Part shown: in pieces, positions 8,982 through 54,650 of the stretch
Numbering within the stretch: the first letter of the stretch is position 1
Layout: each line of letters begins with the position of its first letter
DNA from: Candidatus Cloacimonetes bacterium HGW-Cloacimonetes-3
GTDB lineage: Bacteria > Cloacimonadota > Cloacimonadia > Cloacimonadales > Cloacimonadaceae
NCBI GenBank assembly: GCA_002840645.1
Contig: PHBO01000001.1
Span: 1-64,000 of the forward strand
Direction of reading: 5' to 3'
Length of the DNA stretch: 64,000 nucleotides
Notes under the pieces: generated by a model
Told to the model about the DNA's origin: nothing
Databases searched by the model: none
What the model saw: the letters and a program-made list of their open reading frames with translations, nothing else
Position numbers and translations under genes: made by a program

Positions 8982-9006
8982 GTGTCACCTCAGAGTTTGT
9001 ATTTGC

Positions 9007-9297
9007 TTAAGCTTCCTTAGCGGTTGCTACGGCTTTCACTTTGTTTTCGTGCCAGATCTGTAATACGCCGGCTTTGCGCAGTAAGGAACGGACTGTATCC
9101 GAAGGTTGTGCACCAACGCTTAGCCAGTATATGGCGCGTTCTGTTTCTATATTGATTTTGGATGGATTCGGTTTGGGATCGTACCAACCCACACATTCGA
9201 TGTATTTACCATCGCGTTTCTGGCGGGAATCTACAGCTACAATGCGGTAGAAAGGCAGATCGTTGGCTCCCATCCGTCTCAGTCTTAGCTTGACCAT
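9007..9297 (-). CDS. rpsP: 30S ribosomal protein S16
   Basis: 96 residues beginning [11 protein letters not shown], with the S16 motifs [17 protein letters not shown] and [15 protein letters not shown] precedes the ATG. It is the first gene of the ribosome-biogenesis cluster. The start overlaps (TAATG) the end of a short open stretch to 9365 that has no start codon and may be a decayed upstream gene. Confidence 0.97.
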
Positions 9298-9819
9298 TAT
9301 TTCTCCTTGACTTTATCAATCAGTTTTTCTATTTCATCGCATGCTTTTTTAACGGTCTCATTTCGTCAAGCTCTTTTTTGCGTATTAATTCCATTATTAG
9401 GGCTGTTTATTGTAAATGCGGTTTATACCCCAACCCGTCAGTATTGGGTAAGGGATAGATTCGCGGTTTTGGGGCAGATTTCGGGTCTTTCTGCTGAAAC
9501 CTGGAATACCTGAAGATTTCTTTTAACACAGAGAAAAACAGAGAAGGGCTTAAGAAGAGCTGAAGGGGTACCTGGCAGAAAAGGGATTAAATATTAGTGT
9601 TGCCCATAAAGGGTTTAAAATGATGGTATTGTGCATCGAAGGGCTTCGCTACCGCTGCTCCCCCTTGCTATGTTTTAATGCGCTAACACTGATGAACAAA
9701 AGCATTGTTAGCACCCAATACCACACAGTATAAGTATTGTCTATGCAAAACTGTGGTAGCTGTGTGCAAATTGTCTTGACAATATACGGTGTGTGCTAAA
9801 GATGCACTTGGAGGTGGAG
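9298..9819. other. intergenic spacer, possible decayed small gene
   Basis: No complete gene was found. On the minus strand, 9297-9365 is open with a lysine/glutamate-rich, coiled-coil-like reading ([15 protein letters not shown]) ending at the rpsP start, and 9330-9395 in another frame reads MELIRKKELDEM. Joined by a frameshift they would make a 33-residue peptide, so this may be the tail of a decayed gene. The rest up to about 9770 shows nothing recognisable. Confidence 0.3.
9776..9802 (+). promoter_or_regulatory. possible promoter of DUF4143 ATPase gene
   Basis: TTGACA (9776-9781) lies 15 bases before TAAAGA (9797-9802). Transcription would start near 9809, just upstream of the GGAGG ribosome site and the ATG at 9820, giving a very short leader. 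The -10 match and spacing are imperfect. Confidence 0.3.
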
Positions 9820-11058
9820 ATGGATTATCCACGTAATCTCTGCAAGGAAATTGAGCCTAAGCTTGATCTGCCGGAAGCACTGTTTATCTTGGGTCCCCGG
9901 CAAAGTGGTAAAACTACATTGCTGAAGCAACTTATGCGCAAAGTTGGTGAAGAGCGTTCCATATACATCGATCTTGAATTTCCCGAGCTTCTACGCATTT
10001 TTAGCATGGGTGTCACAGAAATCCTGAAATACCTTAACTACCATCGTCCCAACCAAAATAGCCGTGTTTTCGTGTTTCTTGATGAAGTTCAATATCTTAG
10101 CGATTTTTCCCATATTGTTAAGCTGATGGTGGATCACTATTCTGACCAGTTCAAACTGGTTATGTCCGGATCATCCTCTGCGCTGATCAAATACCAATTC
10201 AAGGAGTCACTGGTTGGCAGGAAGCTCGTTTATGAACTTTTTCCCCTTTCATTTGATGAGTATTTGCGTTTCAAAGCGGAAGACAAGCTCTCGGATATGC
10301 TTATTTACGAACCTGATTCAATCCCATTAGATAAGATATCGGCGTTGGAGAACTACTTGCAGGACTATATAATCTATGGCGGATATCCCAAAGTTGTTAA
10401 GCAGGTATCCCGAGATGATAAACGACAGATATTATTGGATATCGTCAATTCATACATCCTTAAGGATATCAAAGACTTGTTCAAAATCGAGAAAACGCAG
10501 CAACTTAATCACTTAGTTAGGTATCTTGCTGCAAACATCGGAAAGCATGTGAACCATCAAAGCCTTGCAACGGAAATAATGTTACATCGTGAGACGATTC
10601 AAGCATACCTTGAAATTCTGGAGGAATGCTACATTATTAGAAGGCTGAAACCATATTACCAAAACCTTTCTACAGAGCTAAAACAGATGAATAAACTGTA
10701 TTTTGTAGATTCAGGTATTCGTAATGTGCTTATCGATAATCTTAACGAGCTTGAGCTGCGAAGTGATAAGGGAGAGCTCTTTGAGAATTTCATGTATTCA
10801 CATCTATTTCATAATGTGAAAGCTGATCAGAAAATCCGCTATTGGCAAACCAGAAATCATCAGGAGATAGATTTCATTATTACAAGCTCTGCTATGTTGC
10901 TTGCCCTGGAAACCAAGTACTCGGGAGACAAATCTGTATCGTTTGCTGCCTTCCAGAGAGCTTATCCTGATTCCGTGTGCAGAGTCCTATGCTTTCGTAA
11001 CCCCAATCCAGCCAGACAAGAACTCTACGGTTGGCAGGCACTCGGTTTATTGAAATAA
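9820..11058 (+). CDS. AAA-family ATPase with DUF4143 domain
   Basis: 412 residues from the ATG at 9820 with GGAGG just upstream; an in-frame GTG at 9793 is less likely. The N-terminal AAA_14 domain has Walker A GPRQSGKTTLL (about residues 25-35) and Walker B VFVFLDEVQYL. The C-terminal DUF4143 domain contains YFVDSGIRN, LFENF and YWQTRNHQEIDFII, where the last part resembles a PD-(D/E)XK-like core (E..D..) followed by LALETKYS. The family is abundant and patchy in anaerobes. Its biochemical role is not established, and mobile-element or toxin-antitoxin-like functions have been proposed. It is a solitary gene between the ribosome cluster and an acetyltransferase fragment. Confidence 0.93.
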   Translation: MDYPRNLCKEIEPKLDLPEALFILGPRQSGKTTLLKQLMRKVGEERSIYIDLEFPELLRIFSMGVTEILKYLNYHRPNQNSRVFVFLDEVQYLSDFSHIVKLMVDHYSDQFKLVMSGSSSALIKYQFKESLVGRKLVYELFPLSFDEYLRFKAEDKLSDMLIYEPDSIPLDKISALENYLQDYIIYGGYPKVVKQVSRDDKRQILLDIVNSYILKDIKDLFKIEKTQQLNHLVRYLAANIGKHVNHQSLATEIMLHRETIQAYLEILEECYIIRRLKPYYQNLSTELKQMNKLYFVDSGIRNVLIDNLNELELRSDKGELFENFMYSHLFHNVKADQKIRYWQTRNHQEIDFIITSSAMLLALETKYSGDKSVSFAAFQRAYPDSVCRVLCFRNPNPARQELYGWQALGLLK

Positions 11059-11095
11059 GTAATAAGATGCAGCAGTTTGGTGGAGAACGATTGAT

Positions 11096-11182
11096 ATGAA
11101 CATAACAGGCGAACACAATGTAACTCTGCGAGACCTTGTGCCGGAAGACCTGGATGATTATCGCAGGTGGTTCTTCACGTAA
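11096..11182 (+). pseudogene. 5' fragment of GNAT acetyltransferase
   Basis: An ATG with a GGTGGAG site upstream opens a 28-codon frame whose product matches the first residues of the acetyltransferase at 14812 (VTLRDLVPEDLDDYRRWFFT), then meets TAA at 11180. Homology runs on for about 15 bases with a second stop (TAG) where the other copy has TGG, and is then lost. It is a truncated duplicate and not a working gene. Confidence 0.75.
11117..11179 (+). repeat. 63-bp direct repeat, copy 1
   Basis: Identical over 63 bases to 14830-14892, in the same orientation. It encodes the acetyltransferase N-terminal segment VTLRDLVPEDLDDYRRWFF. The flanks are similar but diverged. The two copies bracket 3.65 kb holding one secreted-protein gene. 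Confidence 0.9.
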
Positions 11183-11190
11183 GCAGAATA

Positions 11191-11217
11191 GAAAAAGCCG
11201 GGAAATAATCCCGGCTT
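11191..11217 (-). terminator. terminator of the secreted-protein gene
   Basis: A perfect 9-bp stem AAGCCGGGA / TCCCGGCTT (11195-11203 with 11209-11217) has a 5-base loop. Read on the minus strand it is followed by TTTTTC, as expected of an intrinsic terminator for the gene that ends at 11295. Confidence 0.6.
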
Positions 11218-11294
11218 GATATCAGTTTACTATTCTTTGCTCAGTTTGCACAGACTTTGTTCATTTTTCTATACAACCTTTCAAAATACATCAT

Positions 11295-14204
11295 CTACAG
11301 TTTTACTATCTTCCGGATTTGAGTATCTTTACTGTTCTGCACTCGAATGAAATAGATACCTGATCCAACCCGTTTACCTTGAGTGTTTTCTCCGTTCCAG
11401 ATAACGCTGTGCTCCCCCTTTCCCTGCTGCACGGACAGGAATTTTTTCACAAGCTGCCCCTTAATATTGTAAACGCATATATTCACAGGTTCGTTACTCT
11501 TCTGTTGCCATGCAATCGTAACAGAAGCTGAGAAGGGATTGGGATATGCAGCATGAATAGCTAGGGGGCTTTCAACCAACTCATGCTCTTGGATACTGGA
11601 TGCATTAATTCCACTTAGTTTTTGGGCAAACAGACCGCGAAACGGGTTGCTATATTCCATCACGTAATACGGGCTATGAAGTTCCCATACTACCATTGCT
11701 TCGTTATTCTTCGATGCAGTAACAGGATATCTCTGGGAACCATAATTGGTGCATAAACTCTGTGGTTCACTTTCAACCAGTCCACCCAAAGTACTTATGG
11801 TTTGGTAGAACAGTTTATCAGGAAGAGAGTTACTTTCCCTGCACCAGATGGCAACCATACCTCCATTAGCAAACGATTCCAGAGAAACACTGCTAATATT
11901 ATTCATGTCAGAAGCCGTGTACAGTATTAGTCCCGGAGCTTCATAAAACAGATTACCGTTATAGTCAACACTCTGATACAGTAAAATGGAATTGTTGTTC
12001 AGATAGCCTTTCATCAGAATCCCAAATCCATCTACTCTGGGTTCGCATTTAACCAAGGTAACGGTATTATCTCCCAATAGCAACCCAGTGCTTCCCCAGG
12101 GAAGAAGATGCTGTGGAGTTACCTTAATGGCTAAGGTACTGGATGGTTCAAAACCTCCCAAGACAAGGATTAAATCATCTCCACTTAACTGAGCATAAAA
12201 TGGCCTGCTGGCATGATCGTCAGGATTGATGTAGATGGTTTCTCCTGTTGTAGCCCAGCCCGGCTGTGGATCACCGTTATCATCTACCAGAATGCATTGA
12301 ATAGATTCAGAAGAAGTTCCAGATAATTGACGAGTCCATGTGAAGTATGGGCCTTCAGAGGCCGTCATGTAGCAGGAGTTATACGCTTCAAATCCCACAA
12401 GCTCTTTACCATAGTATCCCCACTGTTTCGCAGAGTTTCTTATGAGTTGCCCCATCACTCTATAACTGTTAGCAGTGTTTTCCATCCAGCCGAGGTAATA
12501 TCCTCCATTATAATAGCTTAGCTTTGCTTTCGTCGTTGTTGCATTGCTTATTAGTATTCCAGGGTCACTATAGCAAAAGTCGCCCCAATAGCTTATTTCT
12601 TGAAAGTATAGTCCCCCGTCATTGAAAATCAGAGCTACATTGCCGGAACTATTACTGGAAGTAACATAGTCTTGTTGGTAAGTATAGCTTCCCAATTGCA
12701 CAGGCTGGGGTAAAACCTGATAACCTGCTGAACTGATAATCTGATAAAACAGCGCATGCTTGCCTTCAGAATTAATATCATGATAAAATACCAGCACTCT
12801 GTCGCCCATTATGTGTGTTGCCAGACTGTGTGCATGTCCTGCAAGGGAAGAGGATAAGGTTTGCCCGCCTGAAGCATAAACAAGGGTGCCATTGGGGGAA
12901 ACCACTTGTTTATACAGCTTAGTATGGGTAGCTTCATCAACTTTGTACATTGCGTTCAGCTGTGTGCCAGATGCTATTATGCTGTAATTGCCAATGGTTC
13001 CGGGACCATTGAAAAGGCTTATACCATTCTCTCCCCAAGCAGCTTCCGTTTGGTTATCTACCTTGTTGACCCTCAGAACTTCAGAGTTTAAGTCCTCTTC
13101 AATCCAGGAACAATACTTGTTGGGAAAATCCATACAGATTTTCAGGTCTCTTACTGAACCATTATGCGTCCCTAAAAGAACTCCTCCGGGGGGGTAAATC
13201 TGAAGATTAGTACCCCAAGCCGTAAAATAGCGAATCTCATTTATGCTACCGATAGTTTTCTGGAAAACCACTTCACAATCGGAGCCAGACAGAATAACAT
13301 CGTAATCTATATTTGTATCGGTAGTTTCAGAAAGAACCAGCTCTGCCGGTGGATTTATCAACGAAGATCCGCTGTATAAAATCCTTACTTTTAAACTCTG
13401 GTTTGTTCCAATACTCTTCACCAAATCATAAACCCTATGATCAGCAGTAACAAATAAGTGATGAGGGAAATTGCTTTCACCGGGCTCATAGGGATAGCTA
13501 TGCTGCCATTGGCGAAAGCCAAAATAAGTATAACCCTCAACGTAGTTTGTGGCGGTGGAAGCGCACTTGTAATGTAGCGCTACGCCATAATTGGCGCAAG
13601 TAGCTATCCCGCTGAAGATCATACCATCTTCTGTTATTATGTAAGGAGCGTTTGCACCCCAGATTTCGGAACCTGCAGCATTGTAGCAGCGTCCCAACAG
13701 CAGGTTTTCACCTTCTTCTTGATAAAACACATATGCTCCACCAATGTCATTTGCCACTATTTTGTAGATGTAAGTAGTAACTATCCTATCTGCAACCACG
13801 CTTATCCCTGTTCCCCATAAGGGCACTCCTGAGGAGCTAAACTTTTGCATTAGTACCTGATATCCCAGGTTATCATTTGCTTCCAACCAACTGATAATGA
13901 AACAATTGTCGGTTGTGGCAAGCAAGTTGATATCTGTAACAGGTGCTTCGCACTCCTTGATGATCAGGGGGTTATCCCAAATAAGTGCACCTTCAGGTTG
14001 GGACAAAGCTGCAATGATTGCATATTTGTTACCAGAGGTTTTTACCCAGGCACTCAGAACATTTCCATATGAATCGCAAACCGGGTTTCCGAAGTAATGT
14101 AGGTCTTGCCCATCTCTCACCACTACATCTTCATTCCACGCGGGTTGACACCAAGCAATAACTGCTGATAGTAGCAACGCTATGCATAATAACGCTCGTT
14201 TCAT
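11295..14204 (-). CDS. large secreted protein with C-terminal FlgD/T9SS-type-A-like sorting domain
   Basis: 969 residues from the ATG at 14204, where AGGAGAG precedes a signal peptide (MKRALLCIALLLSAVIAWC). The long middle is made of repeating beta-rich segments of about 40-50 residues (WGTGISV, WGANAPYI, WGSTGLLL, recurring VFYQEE/VFYHDI blocks). It suggests a beta-propeller or solenoid exoprotein but matches no catalytic motif I can name. The last about 90 residues (YPNPFSASVTI ... WNGENTQGKRVGSGIYFIRVQ) form the FlgD-like domain used as an outer-surface sorting tag in this type of organism. It is bracketed by the two copies of an acetyltransferase fragment and has its own terminator, so it reads as an inserted single-gene unit. 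Confidence 0.88.
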   Translation of the reverse strand: MKRALLCIALLLSAVIAWCQPAWNEDVVVRDGQDLHYFGNPVCDSYGNVLSAWVKTSGNKYAIIAALSQPEGALIWDNPLIIKECEAPVTDINLLATTDNCFIISWLEANDNLGYQVLMQKFSSSGVPLWGTGISVVADRIVTTYIYKIVANDIGGAYVFYQEEGENLLLGRCYNAAGSEIWGANAPYIITEDGMIFSGIATCANYGVALHYKCASTATNYVEGYTYFGFRQWQHSYPYEPGESNFPHHLFVTADHRVYDLVKSIGTNQSLKVRILYSGSSLINPPAELVLSETTDTNIDYDVILSGSDCEVVFQKTIGSINEIRYFTAWGTNLQIYPPGGVLLGTHNGSVRDLKICMDFPNKYCSWIEEDLNSEVLRVNKVDNQTEAAWGENGISLFNGPGTIGNYSIIASGTQLNAMYKVDEATHTKLYKQVVSPNGTLVYASGGQTLSSSLAGHAHSLATHIMGDRVLVFYHDINSEGKHALFYQIISSAGYQVLPQPVQLGSYTYQQDYVTSSNSSGNVALIFNDGGLYFQEISYWGDFCYSDPGILISNATTTKAKLSYYNGGYYLGWMENTANSYRVMGQLIRNSAKQWGYYGKELVGFEAYNSCYMTASEGPYFTWTRQLSGTSSESIQCILVDDNGDPQPGWATTGETIYINPDDHASRPFYAQLSGDDLILVLGGFEPSSTLAIKVTPQHLLPWGSTGLLLGDNTVTLVKCEPRVDGFGILMKGYLNNNSILLYQSVDYNGNLFYEAPGLILYTASDMNNISSVSLESFANGGMVAIWCRESNSLPDKLFYQTISTLGGLVESEPQSLCTNYGSQRYPVTASKNNEAMVVWELHSPYYVMEYSNPFRGLFAQKLSGINASSIQEHELVESPLAIHAAYPNPFSASVTIAWQQKSNEPVNICVYNIKGQLVKKFLSVQQGKGEHSVIWNGENTQGKRVGSGIYFIRVQNSKDTQIRKIVKL

Positions 14205-14811
14205 GATCTCTCCTACGCTGTTTTTGGTGTGTATAAAGAACGGTACGCTTAGGGTGTGTGTCAAAGATAAAAAGCCAAACACCGAGTTCTTTGCTTAACA
14301 TGCAATACATTTATAAGCAGATGTGGAGAAGGAGCTGTAGACTTTGAACTTGAAAAGATAAATCACTAAAATCAGCAGATACAACAGAGCCAATAACTAC
14401 AAAGAGACATTACAAAAAAACAGTCTAAAGGACATACCTCAACAATTTATGAGTTCATTATTCTGTCAAGGAAATTAATATACTCACATCCCCACGTTTT
14501 GTATACAGGATATCTTTGCGAGCAGATAATCTCTCAAAGCTCCCCCGCATTTATCTACTTTGTACCTTGTGGCATGGGTTAGCAACCCGAGGACGTAGGC
14601 AGTTGGAAAGCCCCTTGGGGACGTAGTACCATAGGAAGGATCATCACTATATTTCTGATTTGATCAGCAATGCAAATTATGCAACAATTGGCTAGAGAGA
14701 TACAATACAATAGTTTTTTAATTGATACCTTGAGGTCTCTCTCTTCCCTTGTCAAGCGACTAAGCGGACGACTACATGGTAAACGTAATAGCTTTACCCG
14801 GAGAATTGATA
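14205..14811. other. intergenic spacer
   Basis: About 600 bases, AT-rich up to roughly 14480. No gene, tRNA or strong hairpin was found. The last about 15 bases carry the GGAGAA ribosome site of the broken acetyltransferase and align with the flank of its duplicate at 11080-11096. Confidence 0.4.
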
Positions 14812-15348
14812 ATGAGCATTACCGGACAAAATGTAACTCTGCGAGACCTTGTGCCGGAAGACCTGGATGATTATCGCAGGTGGTTCTTCACGGAAGCGGA
14901 ATGGCAGAAGTGAGACGCTCCCTGGGAGAAAAGCAACGAGACTTCCCAAGGCTATACAGACAGACTCAAGAAAAGGTTGCATACCGAACCGGCAGCAATT
15001 AGAGGCAGACTCGAGATATGCGTTGATAATGCACATATCGGCAGGGTATCATCTTACTTAATAGATAACAATGCCGATTTCCTGGCAGTGGGCATAAACA
15101 TAGCGGAAGCAGGCTATTGGGGCAGAGGGATTGAGAGAGATGCTTTTGCATTGTGGATCAAGTACTTATTCCAAACCAGAAAACCGGAATACATCTACTG
15201 CGAAACCTGGGGCGGCAACCAAAGAATGATAAAACTTGCCCTGAACCTTGGTTTTGAAATAATTGAGAGATACACCAAGATAGAAACGGACGGCAAAGAG
15301 TACCACAAACTCAAGTTCAGGATAAGCGATATCTTTGTCAATTATTGA
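14812..15348 (+). pseudogene. GNAT-family N-acetyltransferase with in-frame TGA
   Basis: One continuous frame of 178 codons is interrupted only by TGA at 14911-14913. The reading EWQK-stop-DAPWE fits a GNAT protein in which the stop replaces a Trp (TGG to TGA). Downstream, the acetyl-CoA-binding core follows: VGINIAEAGYWGRGIERDAF (V..G.I...GRG), CETWGGNQRMIKLALNLGF and EIIERY. Such enzymes transfer acetyl groups to a small amine or a protein N terminus; the substrate is unknown. Because TGA ends other genes in this window normally (for example rimM), recoding is unlikely and the gene is probably inactivated, unless the downstream part is re-initiated. The upstream 63 bases are duplicated at 11117. 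Confidence 0.8.
14830..14892 (+). repeat. 63-bp direct repeat, copy 2
   Basis: Identical to 11117-11179. It lies inside the acetyltransferase frame, codons 7-27. Confidence 0.9.
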
Positions 15349-15861
15349 AGGATAAGCCCCCAGCTGACACAGGATATTGACAAATACCATGTGCAGGGAC
15401 AATAAGTAGGGCAGGTAATCGATTAGCTTAATGTGCCTCTTGTAAATGGCTTATTAAATAGCCCTCTTGCGCCCAAAAGGTTCCGCAATCGCTAAACGCC
15501 CTCCCTATGATGTTTCGCACTTTCAGCGCAGTAAGGATAGCTTAGTCAAAACGCTGGACTCGCGCAGGGGATGATGTTGAGGATGAGATGATAACTCGAG
15601 TCTGTTCATACATGGTATTGAAGCACTAAGAAGCAAGCTAACAACTTGTGCTGAACCAATTTTTAGTTAGATAATTTATGAGTTGCTTTTTCTGATTTTC
15701 TTGACAAAAATAACGAGATGAAATTACTGCATACATCAGTATTCACTTAACCGGTGAGTGTTCAACGGCTTACTAAAAGAGGTCCGATTATGATTTATCC
15801 ATGCGCCCGCCAACACGCTAAATTCCATCGTGTTCTGCAGATTACTAATAGAGGCACAATT
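15349..15861. other. intergenic spacer with duplicated translation-start motif
   Basis: No gene was recognised in 15349-15750. A TTGACA at 15701-15706 has only a poor -10 partner. Two similar stretches, AGAGGTCCGATTATG (ending 15792) and AGAGGCACAATTATG (ending 15864), are both in frame with the nuclease gene and 72 bases apart, so either could be its start. Confidence 0.35.
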
Positions 15862-16743
15862 ATGGCCCCAGTTGTTTACAGAAAACCATCTAAAGATGAT
15901 TACAAGAGAAATATTGGTATGGGATTAATTGTTGCGTTCTTTGCTACATTTTTATCACTTATTCCAGCAATGATTATTGCAGATGAGGTGTTTGATGACT
16001 ATTGCGGAACAATAATGTACCTGATTCTTGCTGCTGTAACCTGCATCAGTTTTTTATTTACAGTGTTCCTTGCAACCCACATTCAAGCAAAGTCCGCTTA
16101 TAAAGCTGCATTAAAAGCGGAAGCAAAGACCAAACATGACGCTGTCATATCAAGAGTGTGGAGTCTAATCCAAAGAAATAGCGAGGTTATTGCAAAAGCA
16201 AGTTACTGGAGACAGAATAATGGCAATATACATGAAGATGAATGGGTTTACAGTTTTATTGAAGAGTACATTGATAAATACTTAGATGAAAGCAGTAAAC
16301 TTCTTGTATCTTATTCGGAGGTTTGTTTATTAGTAAAACGTGCAGTACCTTTTGCGAGAGAACAGTTTTATGATGTTCTCGGTTACAAAGACAATCTGAC
16401 GGGAGTTGAGTTTGAGAATTTTTGCCGGATGAGGTTAGAAAGAAATGGGTGGCATGTAACTAGCACAAAAGCATCTGGAGATCAAGGAGTTGACTTGATT
16501 GCAAAAAAAGACATGATAACGGTAGCAATACAGTGCAAAAAATATACGGGTACTGTTGGAAACAAAGCAGTTCAGGAAGTATATTCTGGGGCAAAGCACT
16601 ACTGCATAAAAATCCCCATTGTAGTCACAAATTCTACTTATACAAAATCAGCTACGGAACTAGCCAAAACAACAGGTGTTATGCTACTCCAATTTTGTCA
16701 GTTAGAGCATCTCTATGATTATTTGAGACCTAAGGTAAAGTGA
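15862..16743 (+). CDS. membrane-anchored Mrr-like restriction endonuclease
   Basis: 293 residues from the ATG at 15862 (AGAGG eight bases upstream); an in-frame ATG at 15790 with a similar site would add 24 residues. Two transmembrane helices (about 17-39 and 49-72) are followed by a long helical, charged linker and a C-terminal Mrr_cat domain of the PD-(D/E)XK fold. That domain has FENFCRMRLERNGW with the helix Glu, GDQGVDL with the metal Asp (about 211), and the catalytic IQCKKY (Gln224-x-Lys226). Such enzymes cut (often modified) DNA. A membrane anchor suggests attack on DNA entering the cell or action as an effector at the envelope. It converges on the SIR2-like gene 86 bases away, in a small defence-like cluster. 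Confidence 0.9.
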   Translation: MAPVVYRKPSKDDYKRNIGMGLIVAFFATFLSLIPAMIIADEVFDDYCGTIMYLILAAVTCISFLFTVFLATHIQAKSAYKAALKAEAKTKHDAVISRVWSLIQRNSEVIAKASYWRQNNGNIHEDEWVYSFIEEYIDKYLDESSKLLVSYSEVCLLVKRAVPFAREQFYDVLGYKDNLTGVEFENFCRMRLERNGWHVTSTKASGDQGVDLIAKKDMITVAIQCKKYTGTVGNKAVQEVYSGAKHYCIKIPIVVTNSTYTKSATELAKTTGVMLLQFCQLEHLYDYLRPKVK

Positions 16744-16829
16744 TAATCCTGTTGTCTGATGAGGGAATGCACTGGATTTACCCGTGCTCTGTGATTTCCT
16801 AGTCCTAAAGGGAGTACCTCCATACACTC

Positions 16830-18446
16830 CTAAGAAAACCTCAGTAAGTCTTCTATTGAGATTTTTTCGAATATGTCGGGAATACCATGGGTGTTAAATC
16901 TCAATTCATCATGTCCAAAGACGTCAATAAACCTTTTAAACTCTTTAGTGAAGCGTTCGGGATTACCGGACATGATTTCTGCTTCGCTTTTTCCTGTTTG
17001 CCAATGGTCGGGTCCACCATAGCCAAGTACCACACTGCATTTGACACCATTCTTCCTTGCTAAGAGAACACTGCGCCACACCAGATCATCGTCCGGCAGG
17101 CTAAATCCCATAAAAATTATATGTTTGGCTTTCTCAAGACAGGCATTTATCTCATATTGTATCATCCTAAGAACTGGAGGCATATTGCTTTTTACTGCTG
17201 TTTGCATAATCAATGGAGTATCTTTTATCTCTGTTTTGGAACCACAATATGAACATTCAATAGCATCAACCCACCCTTGTTCAACCCAGTTACTTTCTTT
17301 GTCAGAGCGGTTTTCAAGCTTTCTGGATGTTGGGAAAAGAGACGGAGGAAATAAAGACTCCGAACTTATATCCCAATTGTCTCCAAAAGTCCCTGTCATT
17401 GATCCACAATTGGGACAGCATCTCCATGCCAAACAACCATGAGGATAATAGTATTTACCAATTCTTACAATTTTGTCGTTGGGGTGTTCAGTGTCGTTAA
17501 TTCTTTGTACGACAGACTCATTGTATGGGTACCAAATCTTTGTCGTTAGCTCTTTTTCCTCATTCTGCTTTCGTAATTCTCGTAGTCCCATCAGAACAGA
17601 AAAGTCATTAAAGAACTTCAATTTTACTTGCTTACCATTGAAACAATCATTGCTTTCATCATCGTTAAATTCCTTGTGCGCATGAAATATCATCCAGTTA
17701 AAGAAGTGATCCCAATTTAGTGAGATTATTGCGTATGAAAACAGGTAAAACTTTCTATCTTCCTGCGGATAAATGCTTACCTCATTCGCTTCTTGTTTCA
17801 TGTATATAGTAAGGTCATCAGCAAACCTTTTGTACTTTGCAATCACATCCTTCTTATCTGCTAAAGCATTCAAGTATGCTCCGGTCATACTGGATGCAAT
17901 GATCATGATTAATGCATTTCTTGCTCCAAGCAACCTGTGCTTTTCTATGAATCTTTTACCTCCTTCTTTTGAATAGAATCCTTCGTTATTAGCCATATGA
18001 TAATCTATCAGATTAAACACACTCATCACCATGCTACTACTGTCACTAGTACAAAGCTTCATTATTTGTTTCAGTGCAGAGAAGTCGTAGTTATAGCGCA
18101 GATTCACGATTATATTAGTTAGTTGCTCATCGTCCAAATTTATAAACAGTTCTTTAGCCTTACCTAGTTGATTTTCTGAAATTTTAGTTACCATACGTAG
18201 TTCTAAGTCAACATTGGCGGTTAGATCATCATCCAATATAAAGAGCAAGTCCGCCATTTCATTGAGGAAATCCCCTTTAAAGAATTCATACTTTGCTAAT
18301 TGAGTAAGATAATCTTCTTCGGTATTTATCGAGGACAGACTAATCAGCAACTCGCCTTGTTTTCCTGTGGTTGGGAATCCAAGTTCATAGGTTGCTCCTG
18401 CTCCCCAGAATATAACTGTATCAGGCCATTTTGTTTCTTTCATCAT
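16830..18446 (-). CDS. SIR2-like (sirtuin-fold) protein with zinc ribbon
   Basis: 538 residues. Sirtuin-type NAD-binding elements occur in the right order: FWGAGATYELGFPT (13-26, glycine loop), SLNWDHFF (Asn244, Asp246), YPHG (catalytic-position His336), a zinc ribbon CPNC (344-347) ... CSYC (398-401), and FMGFSLPDDD (445-454). An inserted helical domain lies at about 45-235. The large insert and the GFSLPD form are usual in SIR2 domains of anti-phage systems, which degrade NAD+, and unlike housekeeping deacetylases. Function as a defence NADase is inferred. The start (ATGATG at 18441-18446) overlaps the end of the small upstream gene by 26 bases, so the two form an operon and probably act together. 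Confidence 0.88.
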   Translation of the reverse strand: MMKETKWPDTVIFWGAGATYELGFPTTGKQGELLISLSSINTEEDYLTQLAKYEFFKGDFLNEMADLLFILDDDLTANVDLELRMVTKISENQLGKAKELFINLDDEQLTNIIVNLRYNYDFSALKQIMKLCTSDSSSMVMSVFNLIDYHMANNEGFYSKEGGKRFIEKHRLLGARNALIMIIASSMTGAYLNALADKKDVIAKYKRFADDLTIYMKQEANEVSIYPQEDRKFYLFSYAIISLNWDHFFNWMIFHAHKEFNDDESNDCFNGKQVKLKFFNDFSVLMGLRELRKQNEEKELTTKIWYPYNESVVQRINDTEHPNDKIVRIGKYYYPHGCLAWRCCPNCGSMTGTFGDNWDISSESLFPPSLFPTSRKLENRSDKESNWVEQGWVDAIECSYCGSKTEIKDTPLIMQTAVKSNMPPVLRMIQYEINACLEKAKHIIFMGFSLPDDDLVWRSVLLARKNGVKCSVVLGYGGPDHWQTGKSEAEIMSGNPERFTKEFKRFIDVFGHDELRFNTHGIPDIFEKISIEDLLRFS

Positions 18447-18941: not shown

Positions 18942-19103
18942 GAGACATTTCTCAGATGCCTGCTTTCTACTTAAATGCATGCTGATTAGATGTGACGTTT
19001 GTTATAGGCTTAGTAAATGTGTGGTGACGGTTGGCAGTTGCCCAGTGCGTTCATTACTCTTCCTCACATGCATATGATCCATTTGTCTGCCATAAGCCAC
19101 CGG

Positions 19104-19135
19104 TAACCCTCCCGTATCGCGATATGGGAGGGTTA
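19104..19135. repeat. palindromic repeat, copy A
   Basis: A 32-bp palindrome with one mismatch, built on AACCCTCCCGTATCG and its complement, is preceded by CCGGTAA. It is the same element as at 44594-44633 and 54475-54513, but lacks 11 bases between the GGTAA and CCCTCCC parts. It lies in the 532-base gap between the SIR2 operon and a secreted-protein gene; the rest of that gap (18942-19285) holds no gene that I can see. Confidence 0.85.
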
Positions 19136-19285
19136 TGGGTTGGATACCGGTTGAAATTATGGTAATCCCAAGGGGAAAGGAGGTTAGAAGCAGTTGCCGC
19201 CCTTATCTTTTATATCGTATTTTCGTCGAAGTGGCTAAATGAGGAAGATTGAGCCGAGTTCTGGTCGGGGAGCCAAATAAAGCTG

Positions 19286-25748: not shown

Positions 25749-26579
25749 TCAGTCACAATGGAAGCCTTCTTGGATAGCTCGTTTCTCGGCTGCTATTAGT
25801 ATCTTAGCTTGCTTATCAGAAGGTATTTGTTTTGGTATAGAGCAAGCAACATTCAGAATGCTAAGTTCCATTGGGCTGAGAACACTATTGGTTCTATTCC
25901 ACTCTCTTAGCATCTGCCAGTGACGTGCTCCTTTTTCAACAACATATGTTTGGTCATGAATGCCATTATGTAAACTCTGGGTCTTACGAGCATTATGTTC
26001 ATTCTCTCTATCTTCCTCTGAACTAATTAATAAACCCCGCACTGATTCAAAGAAATCTATTCTTAGTTCTTTCACTGTCTCCCAACATCTAAGTTTTTTT
26101 GCCCACTCACTGGAATTTGATGTTATTCCATCAGCAGGATCGAGGATAACCTCATTAATCTTTTCAGCGATACTCTCAAACTGCCTCATCAATTCGTGGG
26201 GAACAGTCTGCTTATCCCAAACATCCAGATAGTTAATCGAAAGCCCAATTTTTCTTACATTGTTAGAAAACTTCGCAAGAGTGTATGTTACAATATTTGC
26301 CTTGTACCCCTGATACCAAGAGCTTCTGAATACCATAGCATCAACTTCGCGAAAGAGAATAGCCTTTGCTATCGCTTGTTTGAACCAGAGCTCGTTAAAC
26401 TCTTTATTATCCTTATCCCATTTCTCTGCAATGCGCTTCACAAGGCCTTTTGTTGCTGGTGTGCCAGAGAATGCTTTCTGAGCCCCTAAACTTACTTCAT
26501 GTGGTGCTTCATCAAAAGAGAGTATATACTTAGCCAGATCAGTCTTCGTGAACATCTGCCACCGGGGATTCTGGATCAA
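25749..26579 (-). pseudogene. C-terminal remnant of AIPR abortive-infection protein
   Basis: 276 codons open from a TTG. The first part matches the distinctive AIPR core: WQMFTKTDLAKYILSFDE, PHEVSLGAQKAF, FNELWFKQAIAKAILFRE and YQGYKANIVTYTLA. AIPR proteins (abortive infection, phage resistance) are normally twice this length or more. Here the N-terminal half is missing, a TGA lies two codons upstream of the open frame, and nothing in 26580-26752 resembles it in any frame. It is therefore a 5'-truncated gene, probably cut by a rearrangement. A shorter functional protein starting at ATG 26555 cannot be excluded. It lies downstream of the DUF2075 helicase on the same strand. Confidence 0.75.
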
Positions 26580-26752
26580 GAATCACGTTTTTCTTAAGCT
26601 GCAAGATACTAACCTGGTGCGGTGGCAAGCCAATATCGGCGAAACAAGAAAGAGACAGAAAAAAGAAAAAGATATGATTGACCACGGAGGGGGTATGTTT
26701 CCCCCAGTACAGAATCGGGATTATGCTTAGCATGATGAAGCAGGTAACCTAT

Positions 26753-28723
26753 TTATATCTCCTGTACCCCTACAGCTTTGAAGTAATGATAGATTGGGTC
26801 ATAAAACGCTGGGTCTCTGGTTGGGTCAGCTTCATCGCCTTCGGGCACAACAATAACTAACCCCTGCCTGGCTCTGGTTAGCAATACCCGATACGCATTT
26901 TTCTGATACTCTTGTCGTTCTGGTTTGTTGATGCGTTGCCATTTGCTACCCCTAAACGACCAATGACCCCATCCCTGGTTTGTGAACCTGAAATCACCAT
27001 CACAAACAACACAAGCCCAGTCCAATTCCAGACCTTGAATCATAAACTCAGTTGCCACATCCTCCATATAGTACGAAGAGCGAACATCGTCTTTTCCCTT
27101 AAGAAACCAATGTATAGGGTTTACAGGGGTCTTAACATCTATGGCATGAGGTTTCAAGCGTTCAGCTTGCGAAGAAACTACTATTCCGTATCGTTCAGAC
27201 CCTCGCGCTTGTGTTTTAATCCATGACTTTGCTTGATTTAGATTTCTAGTTAATACGATTGGGTATTTATTGCTAATTGTGGAGAGAACATCTTTAGCAT
27301 TTTCTAATTCAAGATCAAGCAGGTGTTTTACAAATTGTGAAACTGCCTCTGCTCGGAAAGACCGCATTGATACCGCTAAATGTAAACAAGGCTCATACGA
27401 AATCTGATGGTTGCCTACCCATTTGGATAGTTTCTCCTCTGCCCGATACTCACTATCAGTCAATTGGGGAGAAATGTACACTTTCCAATGAGGACAGCTT
27501 CGCATTATGGAATCAAGCCACTCTCCAATCCCTGCTTCACCAGTGTTGATTTCCTGACCACCACCAACTAAACATATTATTACAGCCCAGTCTTGATGGC
27601 GCTCCATACATGAAATTAAGAACTCTGGCTCAGATTGGGAAAAACCTGGGCGGTTCTTTTTCCGCTTCATGAAATCACATGTTTGGTTTAAGTCCCAAGC
27701 TCTTTGGGCTTCATCAAATATCGCTACATGCTCAATTGGTGGTCTTTCATCAATTAGAGAAGCATCCCTAAAATGATGTACTATCTGAATGAACATCTTA
27801 ACATCTGATCTTGTAACTGCAAGGTCTCTGGGTCTTAAGCCCTCTTTTACTTGTTGTTTGCAATCTTGGTAAAGCGCTTCCTGTAAAACTCCGACCAATG
27901 GACCATTACCAGATAGGAATACACTATACAACTCGTCTTTCCTGTCTATGAATTTTGTAGCGATATCAAGACCTACAAGTGTCTTTCCTGAGCCTGGCAC
28001 ACCTGTTACAAAGCAGATTGCCTTTTGCGATGCGGCTCTTGTTTGGCGGATAATCTCTGCTAACTTGGCTGATGTTTGTGAGATGTTGATGGCACCAGCT
28101 TCGCTACGCGTAATATTCTCTACCGAGTGGTTTCGATACAAAGCTGTTGCCGCTTCTACTATCGTGGGTGTGGGATGGTATCTGCCTTCTTCCCAAGCTT
28201 CAATTGATATTGGCGGACAATCAGAATACTGGTTAACAACGCTTACAAGAACTTCATGCAGGCAGTTTGCAGGGCACTTGATGGGTTTTAACAGACATTG
28301 TGCTTTGCTTTTCGAAACGATAGGAACGGTGCCTTGTTGGGTGTTAATGAGAAGTGGAACTATCAGTTTATCATGACTGGTCTCGTGGAAGTTCTGTAAA
28401 TCAAGTGCATAATCCCAAACTTGATCCACTGCGTAAGCGCTAAACAGCTCTGCACCTATTTTGAACTCGATTACAAATATGACCGGGCCGATTATAACAA
28501 TTGCATCAACTCGCTTGCCCATACGTGGTATAGAGTATTCAAGGTAGATTTTGCCTTCAAGCCCATCGAGGTTAGACTTCAGTATCTTAATCTCTTCATT
28601 CCAAGCATCACGCTGAGTTTGAAGTAATGTAAACTCGTTGTTTTCTGCCAGTTCAGCAATTATCAGTGCAGACTCTTTTGTTAAAAAGTCCTTGATCTGA
28701 TCATTGTAATATGCTCTATTCAT
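26753..28723 (-). CDS. DUF2075 nuclease-helicase
   Basis: 656 residues. The N-terminal domain has PD-(D/E)XK nuclease marks: VDAIVII (Asp73), FVIEFKIG (Glu86-x-Lys88) and the following QVWDYA (Gln101, Tyr105). The central and C-terminal DUF2075 region is a superfamily 1-type helicase: Walker A GVPGSGKT (241-248), Walker B AIFDEAQRAWD (334-344), CLVGGGQEINTGEAG (motif III area), a late motif YRVLLTRARQG (motif VI area). DUF2075 proteins are frequent in phage-defence islands. Target nucleic acid and mechanism are not known. The ribosome site is weak. It has an AIPR remnant directly downstream, so the two may be parts of one decayed locus. Confidence 0.9.
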   Translation of the reverse strand: MNRAYYNDQIKDFLTKESALIIAELAENNEFTLLQTQRDAWNEEIKILKSNLDGLEGKIYLEYSIPRMGKRVDAIVIIGPVIFVIEFKIGAELFSAYAVDQVWDYALDLQNFHETSHDKLIVPLLINTQQGTVPIVSKSKAQCLLKPIKCPANCLHEVLVSVVNQYSDCPPISIEAWEEGRYHPTPTIVEAATALYRNHSVENITRSEAGAINISQTSAKLAEIIRQTRAASQKAICFVTGVPGSGKTLVGLDIATKFIDRKDELYSVFLSGNGPLVGVLQEALYQDCKQQVKEGLRPRDLAVTRSDVKMFIQIVHHFRDASLIDERPPIEHVAIFDEAQRAWDLNQTCDFMKRKKNRPGFSQSEPEFLISCMERHQDWAVIICLVGGGQEINTGEAGIGEWLDSIMRSCPHWKVYISPQLTDSEYRAEEKLSKWVGNHQISYEPCLHLAVSMRSFRAEAVSQFVKHLLDLELENAKDVLSTISNKYPIVLTRNLNQAKSWIKTQARGSERYGIVVSSQAERLKPHAIDVKTPVNPIHWFLKGKDDVRSSYYMEDVATEFMIQGLELDWACVVCDGDFRFTNQGWGHWSFRGSKWQRINKPERQEYQKNAYRVLLTRARQGLVIVVPEGDEADPTRDPAFYDPIYHYFKAVGVQEI

Positions 28724-44334: not shown

Positions 44335-44593
44335 TTATTCCCCTGTATTTATACTATCTTGGCTATGTCGCTTTTCGCCTGCACATGCTTATGCGAGGCA
44401 ATCAAGCTTACTGTGTGCAATATCCATTCCATATAATTGGCTTTCACGTGCAAAACACAAGAATAGTCATTTAAGTGATAACTTTCGCTTCACTTTCACA
44501 CCGAGTGAGCAGTATAGTGCCCATTCAAGAACAGCATATCTGCATTAATATACATCATCACTTTCTCCAGCCTTGTTTACCACTGGTAACCTT

Positions 44594-44633
44594 CCCATAA
44601 CCCTCCCGTATCGCGATACGGGAGGGTTATGGG
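44594..44633. repeat. palindromic repeat, copy B
   Basis: A perfect 40-bp palindrome without loop: CCCATAACCCTCCCGTATCG and its reverse complement. It is preceded by GGTAACCTT. Same element as at 19104 and 54475. Confidence 0.92.
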
Positions 44634-44798
44634 AGGGCTAACGGCAGCAAGCAAGCTAAGTGTGTATAAATGCTATGCTTTATCTAAAATGTCCGGTGGG
44701 AGCAAAACCCTACTATAATTTGTTATCACCTGCCCCTAAAAGAGAGCAGCTAAATCTGTTGTTTACTAAGCTAATTGCCAAGCTATGAAGCCAAAGAA

Positions 44799-54331: not shown

Positions 54332-54474
54332 TAATCTACTTGCCTGAATCTTGACTTGTTTCGATATTGAGTGGTAGCTGATACAATATTCTTCCTGGAT
54401 TATACATTCCGTCTGGCATTCATGCTAAAGCATAGTAATTATATAAGCTTAGCCTGTTTGCTCCCGGTAACCCA

Positions 54475-54513
54475 CCCATAACCCTCCCGTATCGGATACG
54501 GGAGGGTTATGGG
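54475..54513. repeat. palindromic repeat, copy C
   Basis: Arms CCCATAACCCTCCCGTATC (54475-54493) and its exact reverse complement (54495-54513) around a single G. Preceded by CGGTAACCCAC as in the other copies. The remainder of the 319-base gap 54332-54650 shows no gene. Confidence 0.92.
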
Positions 54514-54650
54514 AATCTTATGAGATATCAGCAGGATTGAAGTAAGAGATTCGCAATTTGGGGGCATGTCTGCTTGGGGAACTGCTTGACAGAAAACAGA
54601 GTACTAATTTATCTTGCATTCAGTATAGAATAGGGGTTAAGTAACTGAAA

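Follow-up and report, generated by a model that had tools for sequence, protein, structure and literature searches.

A 63-bp perfect repeat around a secreted-protein gene of a Cloacimonadaceae bacterium: an apparent case of acetyltransferase gene duplication and decay

How did two identical 63-bp sequences come to lie on either side of a single secreted-protein gene in Candidatus Cloacimonetes bacterium HGW-Cloacimonetes-3? We analysed this locus within a stretch of 64,000 nucleotides (hereafter the window; contig PHBO01000001.1, positions 1 to 64,000 of the forward strand), for which an earlier note had offered two answers: that the repeats bound a single-gene integration unit using an acetyltransferase gene as its target, or that they go back to a tandem duplication whose copies gene conversion has kept identical. 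Our result is mostly a correction. The locus has the appearance of a common gene duplication followed by decay rather than of a mobile one-gene unit, and the striking perfect repeat around one gene comes down to a gene start present in two broken copies that share a short, apparently homogenised tract.

Two broken copies of an acetyltransferase gene start

The two 63-bp sequences (11117-11179 and 14830-14892, forward strand) are exactly equal and span 21 codons in frame. A blastn comparison of the two regions revealed a wider homology around them (11090-11197 versus 14805-14910; 109 columns, 88% identity, E 1e-35), which comprises 6-7 bp of upstream sequence and the opening ~34 codons of a gene for a GNAT acetyltransferase. 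The coordinates of the repeats, their identity between diverged flanks and their assignment to an acetyltransferase N-terminus, all put forward in the earlier note, were confirmed. The left copy lies 3.7 kb from the other one, with the secreted-protein gene in between. The tract region occurs at two places only in the whole 2.68-Mb genome of this bacterium, which is also the only one of the 147 genomes searched that contains it. A structured RNA in the tract was rejected, as Rfam gave no match across positions 9000-17000 and the folding z-scores were -1.4, 0.2 and -0.5.

According to the blastn comparison and a codon listing, the left copy (11090-11197, forward strand) is a 5' stub of about 34 codons. 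It carries stops at codons 29 and 32 (11180-11182 and 11189-11191), and these two nonsense changes in its 3' end suggest later decay. The stub runs up to the putative terminator of the gene for the secreted protein, a hairpin on the reverse strand (11195-11217, recognised by consensus match only) whose T tail falls inside the decayed end of the stub. The final 18 columns of the copy pair match at 13 positions; matches of at least 13/18 were found at just 6 of the 63,946 18-mer positions of the forward strand of the window, the left copy being one of the six, and given this rarity the decayed end of the left copy is probably also homologous to the gene. No C-terminal remnant of the left copy was detected by tblastn or blastn in four nearby intergenic stretches, two of them inside the repeat pair, where only chance-level matches were obtained. 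One of the four, at 14208-14804, was searched with the GNAT gene by both programs and held no detectable remnant of a second acetyltransferase. A split second acetyltransferase was rejected on these results, which cover both intergenic stretches separating the two copies as well as those upstream and downstream of the locus.

The right copy (14812-15348, forward strand) has its own start and is a near full-length GNAT reading frame, interrupted by one premature TGA (14911-14913). When read through this stop it codes for a 178-residue GNAT recognised by Pfam Acetyltransf_3 (8e-18, 65.8 bits, cut-off 25.4). All eight relatives that were read across the TGA site (seven from the GNAT alignment and an eighth, L067, read outside it) are uninterrupted there. 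Because of the two early stops on the left and the premature stop on the right, both acetyltransferase copies are probably pseudogenes. The earlier note mentions neither these stops nor the shortness of the left copy. Of the 49 genomes of the family, 5, that of the present bacterium included, were found to carry a clear acetyltransferase relative (E <= 1e-15), and none of the seven other genomes of the genus did. In the four other genomes with such a relative the gene is uninterrupted and has different neighbours; a search of plasmids gave distant GNAT relatives only, with less than 60% identity.

The 13 differing columns between the two copies all lie outside the 63-bp run, that is, in the remaining 46 columns, which makes the flanks ~28% diverged. 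Under a random spread of differences the probability of a run as long as 63 bp is 6e-5, or ~4e-4 once the gap is counted as a single event. The pair therefore shows what is taken as a sign of gene conversion, an unexpectedly identical tract between diverged homologous flanks. In addition, most of the differences between the 5' codons of the left and right copies are synonymous, apart from a 3-nt indel that keeps the frame, few codons being available to judge selection, and in the gap region the length of the right copy equals that of the relatives. These last two features suggest that the copies diverged while coding.

The secreted-protein gene and its surroundings

Between the repeats there is a single secreted-protein gene (11295-14207, reverse strand) followed by the hairpin described above, as the earlier note had stated. 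Its product, of 970 amino acids from the ATG, ends in a type IX sorting domain (Pfam Por_Secre_tail, 6e-10, 39.8 bits, cut-off 27) and also matches FlgD_ig (1e-8); the Por_Secre_tail match makes it a predicted type IX secretion cargo. Matches to this protein at E <= 0.001 were found in 130 of the 147 genomes, although in many cases the match covers just the C-terminal tail that these proteins share. The gene belongs to a large family of paralogs that is widespread among the relatives. Its best relative outside its own genome shares 44% identity over residues 2-676 and lies on a 4011-base contig with no acetyltransferase match.

The earlier note had proposed to look for the same secreted gene at other positions, flanked by the same repeats. 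No second copy of the unit was found. The flanks of members of the gene family were compared as well: from 30 secreted-family loci (L034-L063), 15 chosen for a near full-length protein match or a match reaching a gene end entered the test, and 13 of these were testable, the other two having fewer than 100 bases on one side. Long flanking direct repeats were present at the locus described here and at none of the other twelve, one of which showed a 26-bp flank match (88%, E 1.5e-4).

Upstream of the stub lies a gene for an AAA_14/DUF4143 ATPase (9793-11058, forward strand; Pfam DUF4143 5e-39, AAA_14 6e-31; PADLOC candidate PDC-S01 1e-99), and just ahead of the locus there is a conserved trmD-rimM-KH-rpsP block, ending at 9298-9792, that is found in five of the seven genus relatives. 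Beyond rpsP, none of these five matches the genes of the window other than through the shared sorting tail, two of the stretches ending within a few kb. The DUF4143 gene has its closest relative (86%) in G006, on a 4.5-kb contig without an acetyltransferase. The other check proposed by the earlier note, for an empty site in related genomes, thus found none, with 147 genomes searched for the tract and the 49 family genomes for the GNAT gene: the acetyltransferase relatives are at other places, the rpsP flanks do not match and the DUF4143 relative has no acetyltransferase beside it. Neither a neighbourhood nor an arrangement like that of the present locus was seen in any of the genomes searched, and none preserves an earlier state. 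The outcome that the earlier note had named as refuting its proposal, one and the same order in all related genomes with no empty site, could therefore not arise.

Some other features of the region are worth recording. The closest DUF4143 relative (L072, G006:C416) sits between two similar reading frames (329-667 and 2057-2440; 112 and 127 residues), which means that this gene also has a direct repeat on either side, although the repeated sequence is another one. Matches to defence models cluster at 9793-11058, 15754-16743, 16830-18446 and 25749-28723, and comprise the DUF4143 ATPase (PDC-S01), a nuclease of the Mrr type, a weak match to SIR2 and an AIPR protein next to a Schlafen-type helicase (PDC-S41, 2e-280). 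Nearly the whole of the intergenic stretch at 14208-14804 (searched as 14215-14808) is present in a single copy in the genome, which rejects a dispersed repeat there. Elsewhere in the window an imperfect repeat containing a strong palindrome (ATAACCCTCCCGTATCGCGATA...) was found at three places and in both orientations (19093-19165, 44582-44659 and 54464-54522); it resembles dispersed repeats of the REP type or terminator-like ones.

Origin of the repeat pair

We consider it fairly probable that the locus goes back to two diverged GNAT copies, one of them truncated, in which the tract was homogenised by recombination, the secreted-protein gene being an unrelated neighbour and not cargo moved by the repeats. 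This origin is supported by the fact that homology within the gene start reaches past the 63-bp tract in both directions. Two related GNAT copies would first have diverged while both were still coding. The right copy would have stayed full-length and acquired its premature stop afterwards, and the left copy would have lost everything past about codon 34, the point at which the secreted-protein gene now has its terminator. As diverged and once-coding copies now have an identical middle, a later homogenising event would be needed, in which a tract of at least 63 bp was made identical by homologous recombination, most simply by gene conversion between the copies or by recombination involving a related allele. 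The second suggestion of the earlier note, duplication with gene conversion, stands insofar as it fits the mosaic of an identical middle and ~28% diverged flanks. The homology, the stops, the truncation and this mosaic are seen in the sequence itself; conversion as the cause and the order of events are what we infer.

As no C-terminal remnant of the left copy was found in the intergenic stretches searched, insertion into one gene or duplication of a 5' end only would leave a similar picture. In the former case, an element carrying a diverged replacement start would have recombined with the 5' end of the acetyltransferase gene within the 63-bp identity, in a site-specific or homologous manner, so that the displaced start became the left stub and the rebuilt gene lies on the right. 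Such an event would account for one acetyltransferase body with two starts, the right copy having its own and a second C-terminal part not being found, and attachment sites inside genes also show an identical core with diverged flanks. However, no recombinase, integrase or transposase was detected by Pfam in or near the interval, among five distinct genes at 9793-18446 and ten other ORFs of the window, up to 34.1 kb. There is no tRNA in the window, so that a tRNA attachment site was rejected. Furthermore, the unit has no second copy in its own genome and no match in phage and viral-contig collections, the other secreted-family loci lack such repeats, and the left 3' flank is still gene-like (13/18). 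With these results, integration into the acetyltransferase gene appears unlikely, and the single-gene integration unit of the earlier note is not upheld, its supposed cargo being one member of a large paralog family.

Recent copying of the ~108-bp gene start alone to a spot beside the DUF4143 gene, with the flanks decaying afterwards, is a still more doubtful origin. The homology does stop close to the start codon on the upstream side and at around codon 34 on the downstream side, with none further around, but a divergence of 28% at both ends with zero over 63 bp differs from uniform decay, and the mostly synonymous differences in the first codons and the in-frame indel also speak against it. 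It is very improbable that the arrangement is an assembly artefact, with the draft threaded through the 63-bp identity and the true state being either a circle beside a shorter chromosome or two strains joined: the genome is a 32-contig draft and 63 coincides with a k-mer size in use by assemblers, but gene homology continues in all four flanks, unlike what would result from a k-mer joined by chance, and the genome is reported as 97.5% complete with 0.59% contamination. Lastly, a minimal mobile unit with one type IX cargo gene that entered the acetyltransferase start via the 63-bp tract and supplied a replacement start, its recombinase being encoded elsewhere, is scarcely credible; a clean empty site in sister strains, if seen, would point to such a very small mobile cargo unit.

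Comparison with known systems

The right copy resembles other GNATs of Pfam Acetyltransf_3 when read through (65.8 bits against the cut-off of 25.4), and differs from its uninterrupted relatives by the interrupting stop. At the level of the whole locus, integrative elements such as the prophages in icd insert at the end of a protein-coding gene and bring a new end to replace the old one. The locus is like them in its identical core, in a diverged gene end on one side and in having part of the gene end displaced as a second copy. However, it differs from them in that one secreted-protein gene lies inside and no integrase was seen among the scanned proteins, in the lack of a second copy and of an empty site among the genomes searched, and in that the rebuilt gene carries a stop. 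Finally, the locus can be compared with partial gene duplications and pseudogenes that have short conversion tracts between paralogs. Although only 63 bp are identical here, the 3' part of the second copy is missing and the conversion step is one that we infer, the locus shares with such cases two copies of a gene start, one of them truncated and both interrupted by stops, with an identical tract in diverged flanks.
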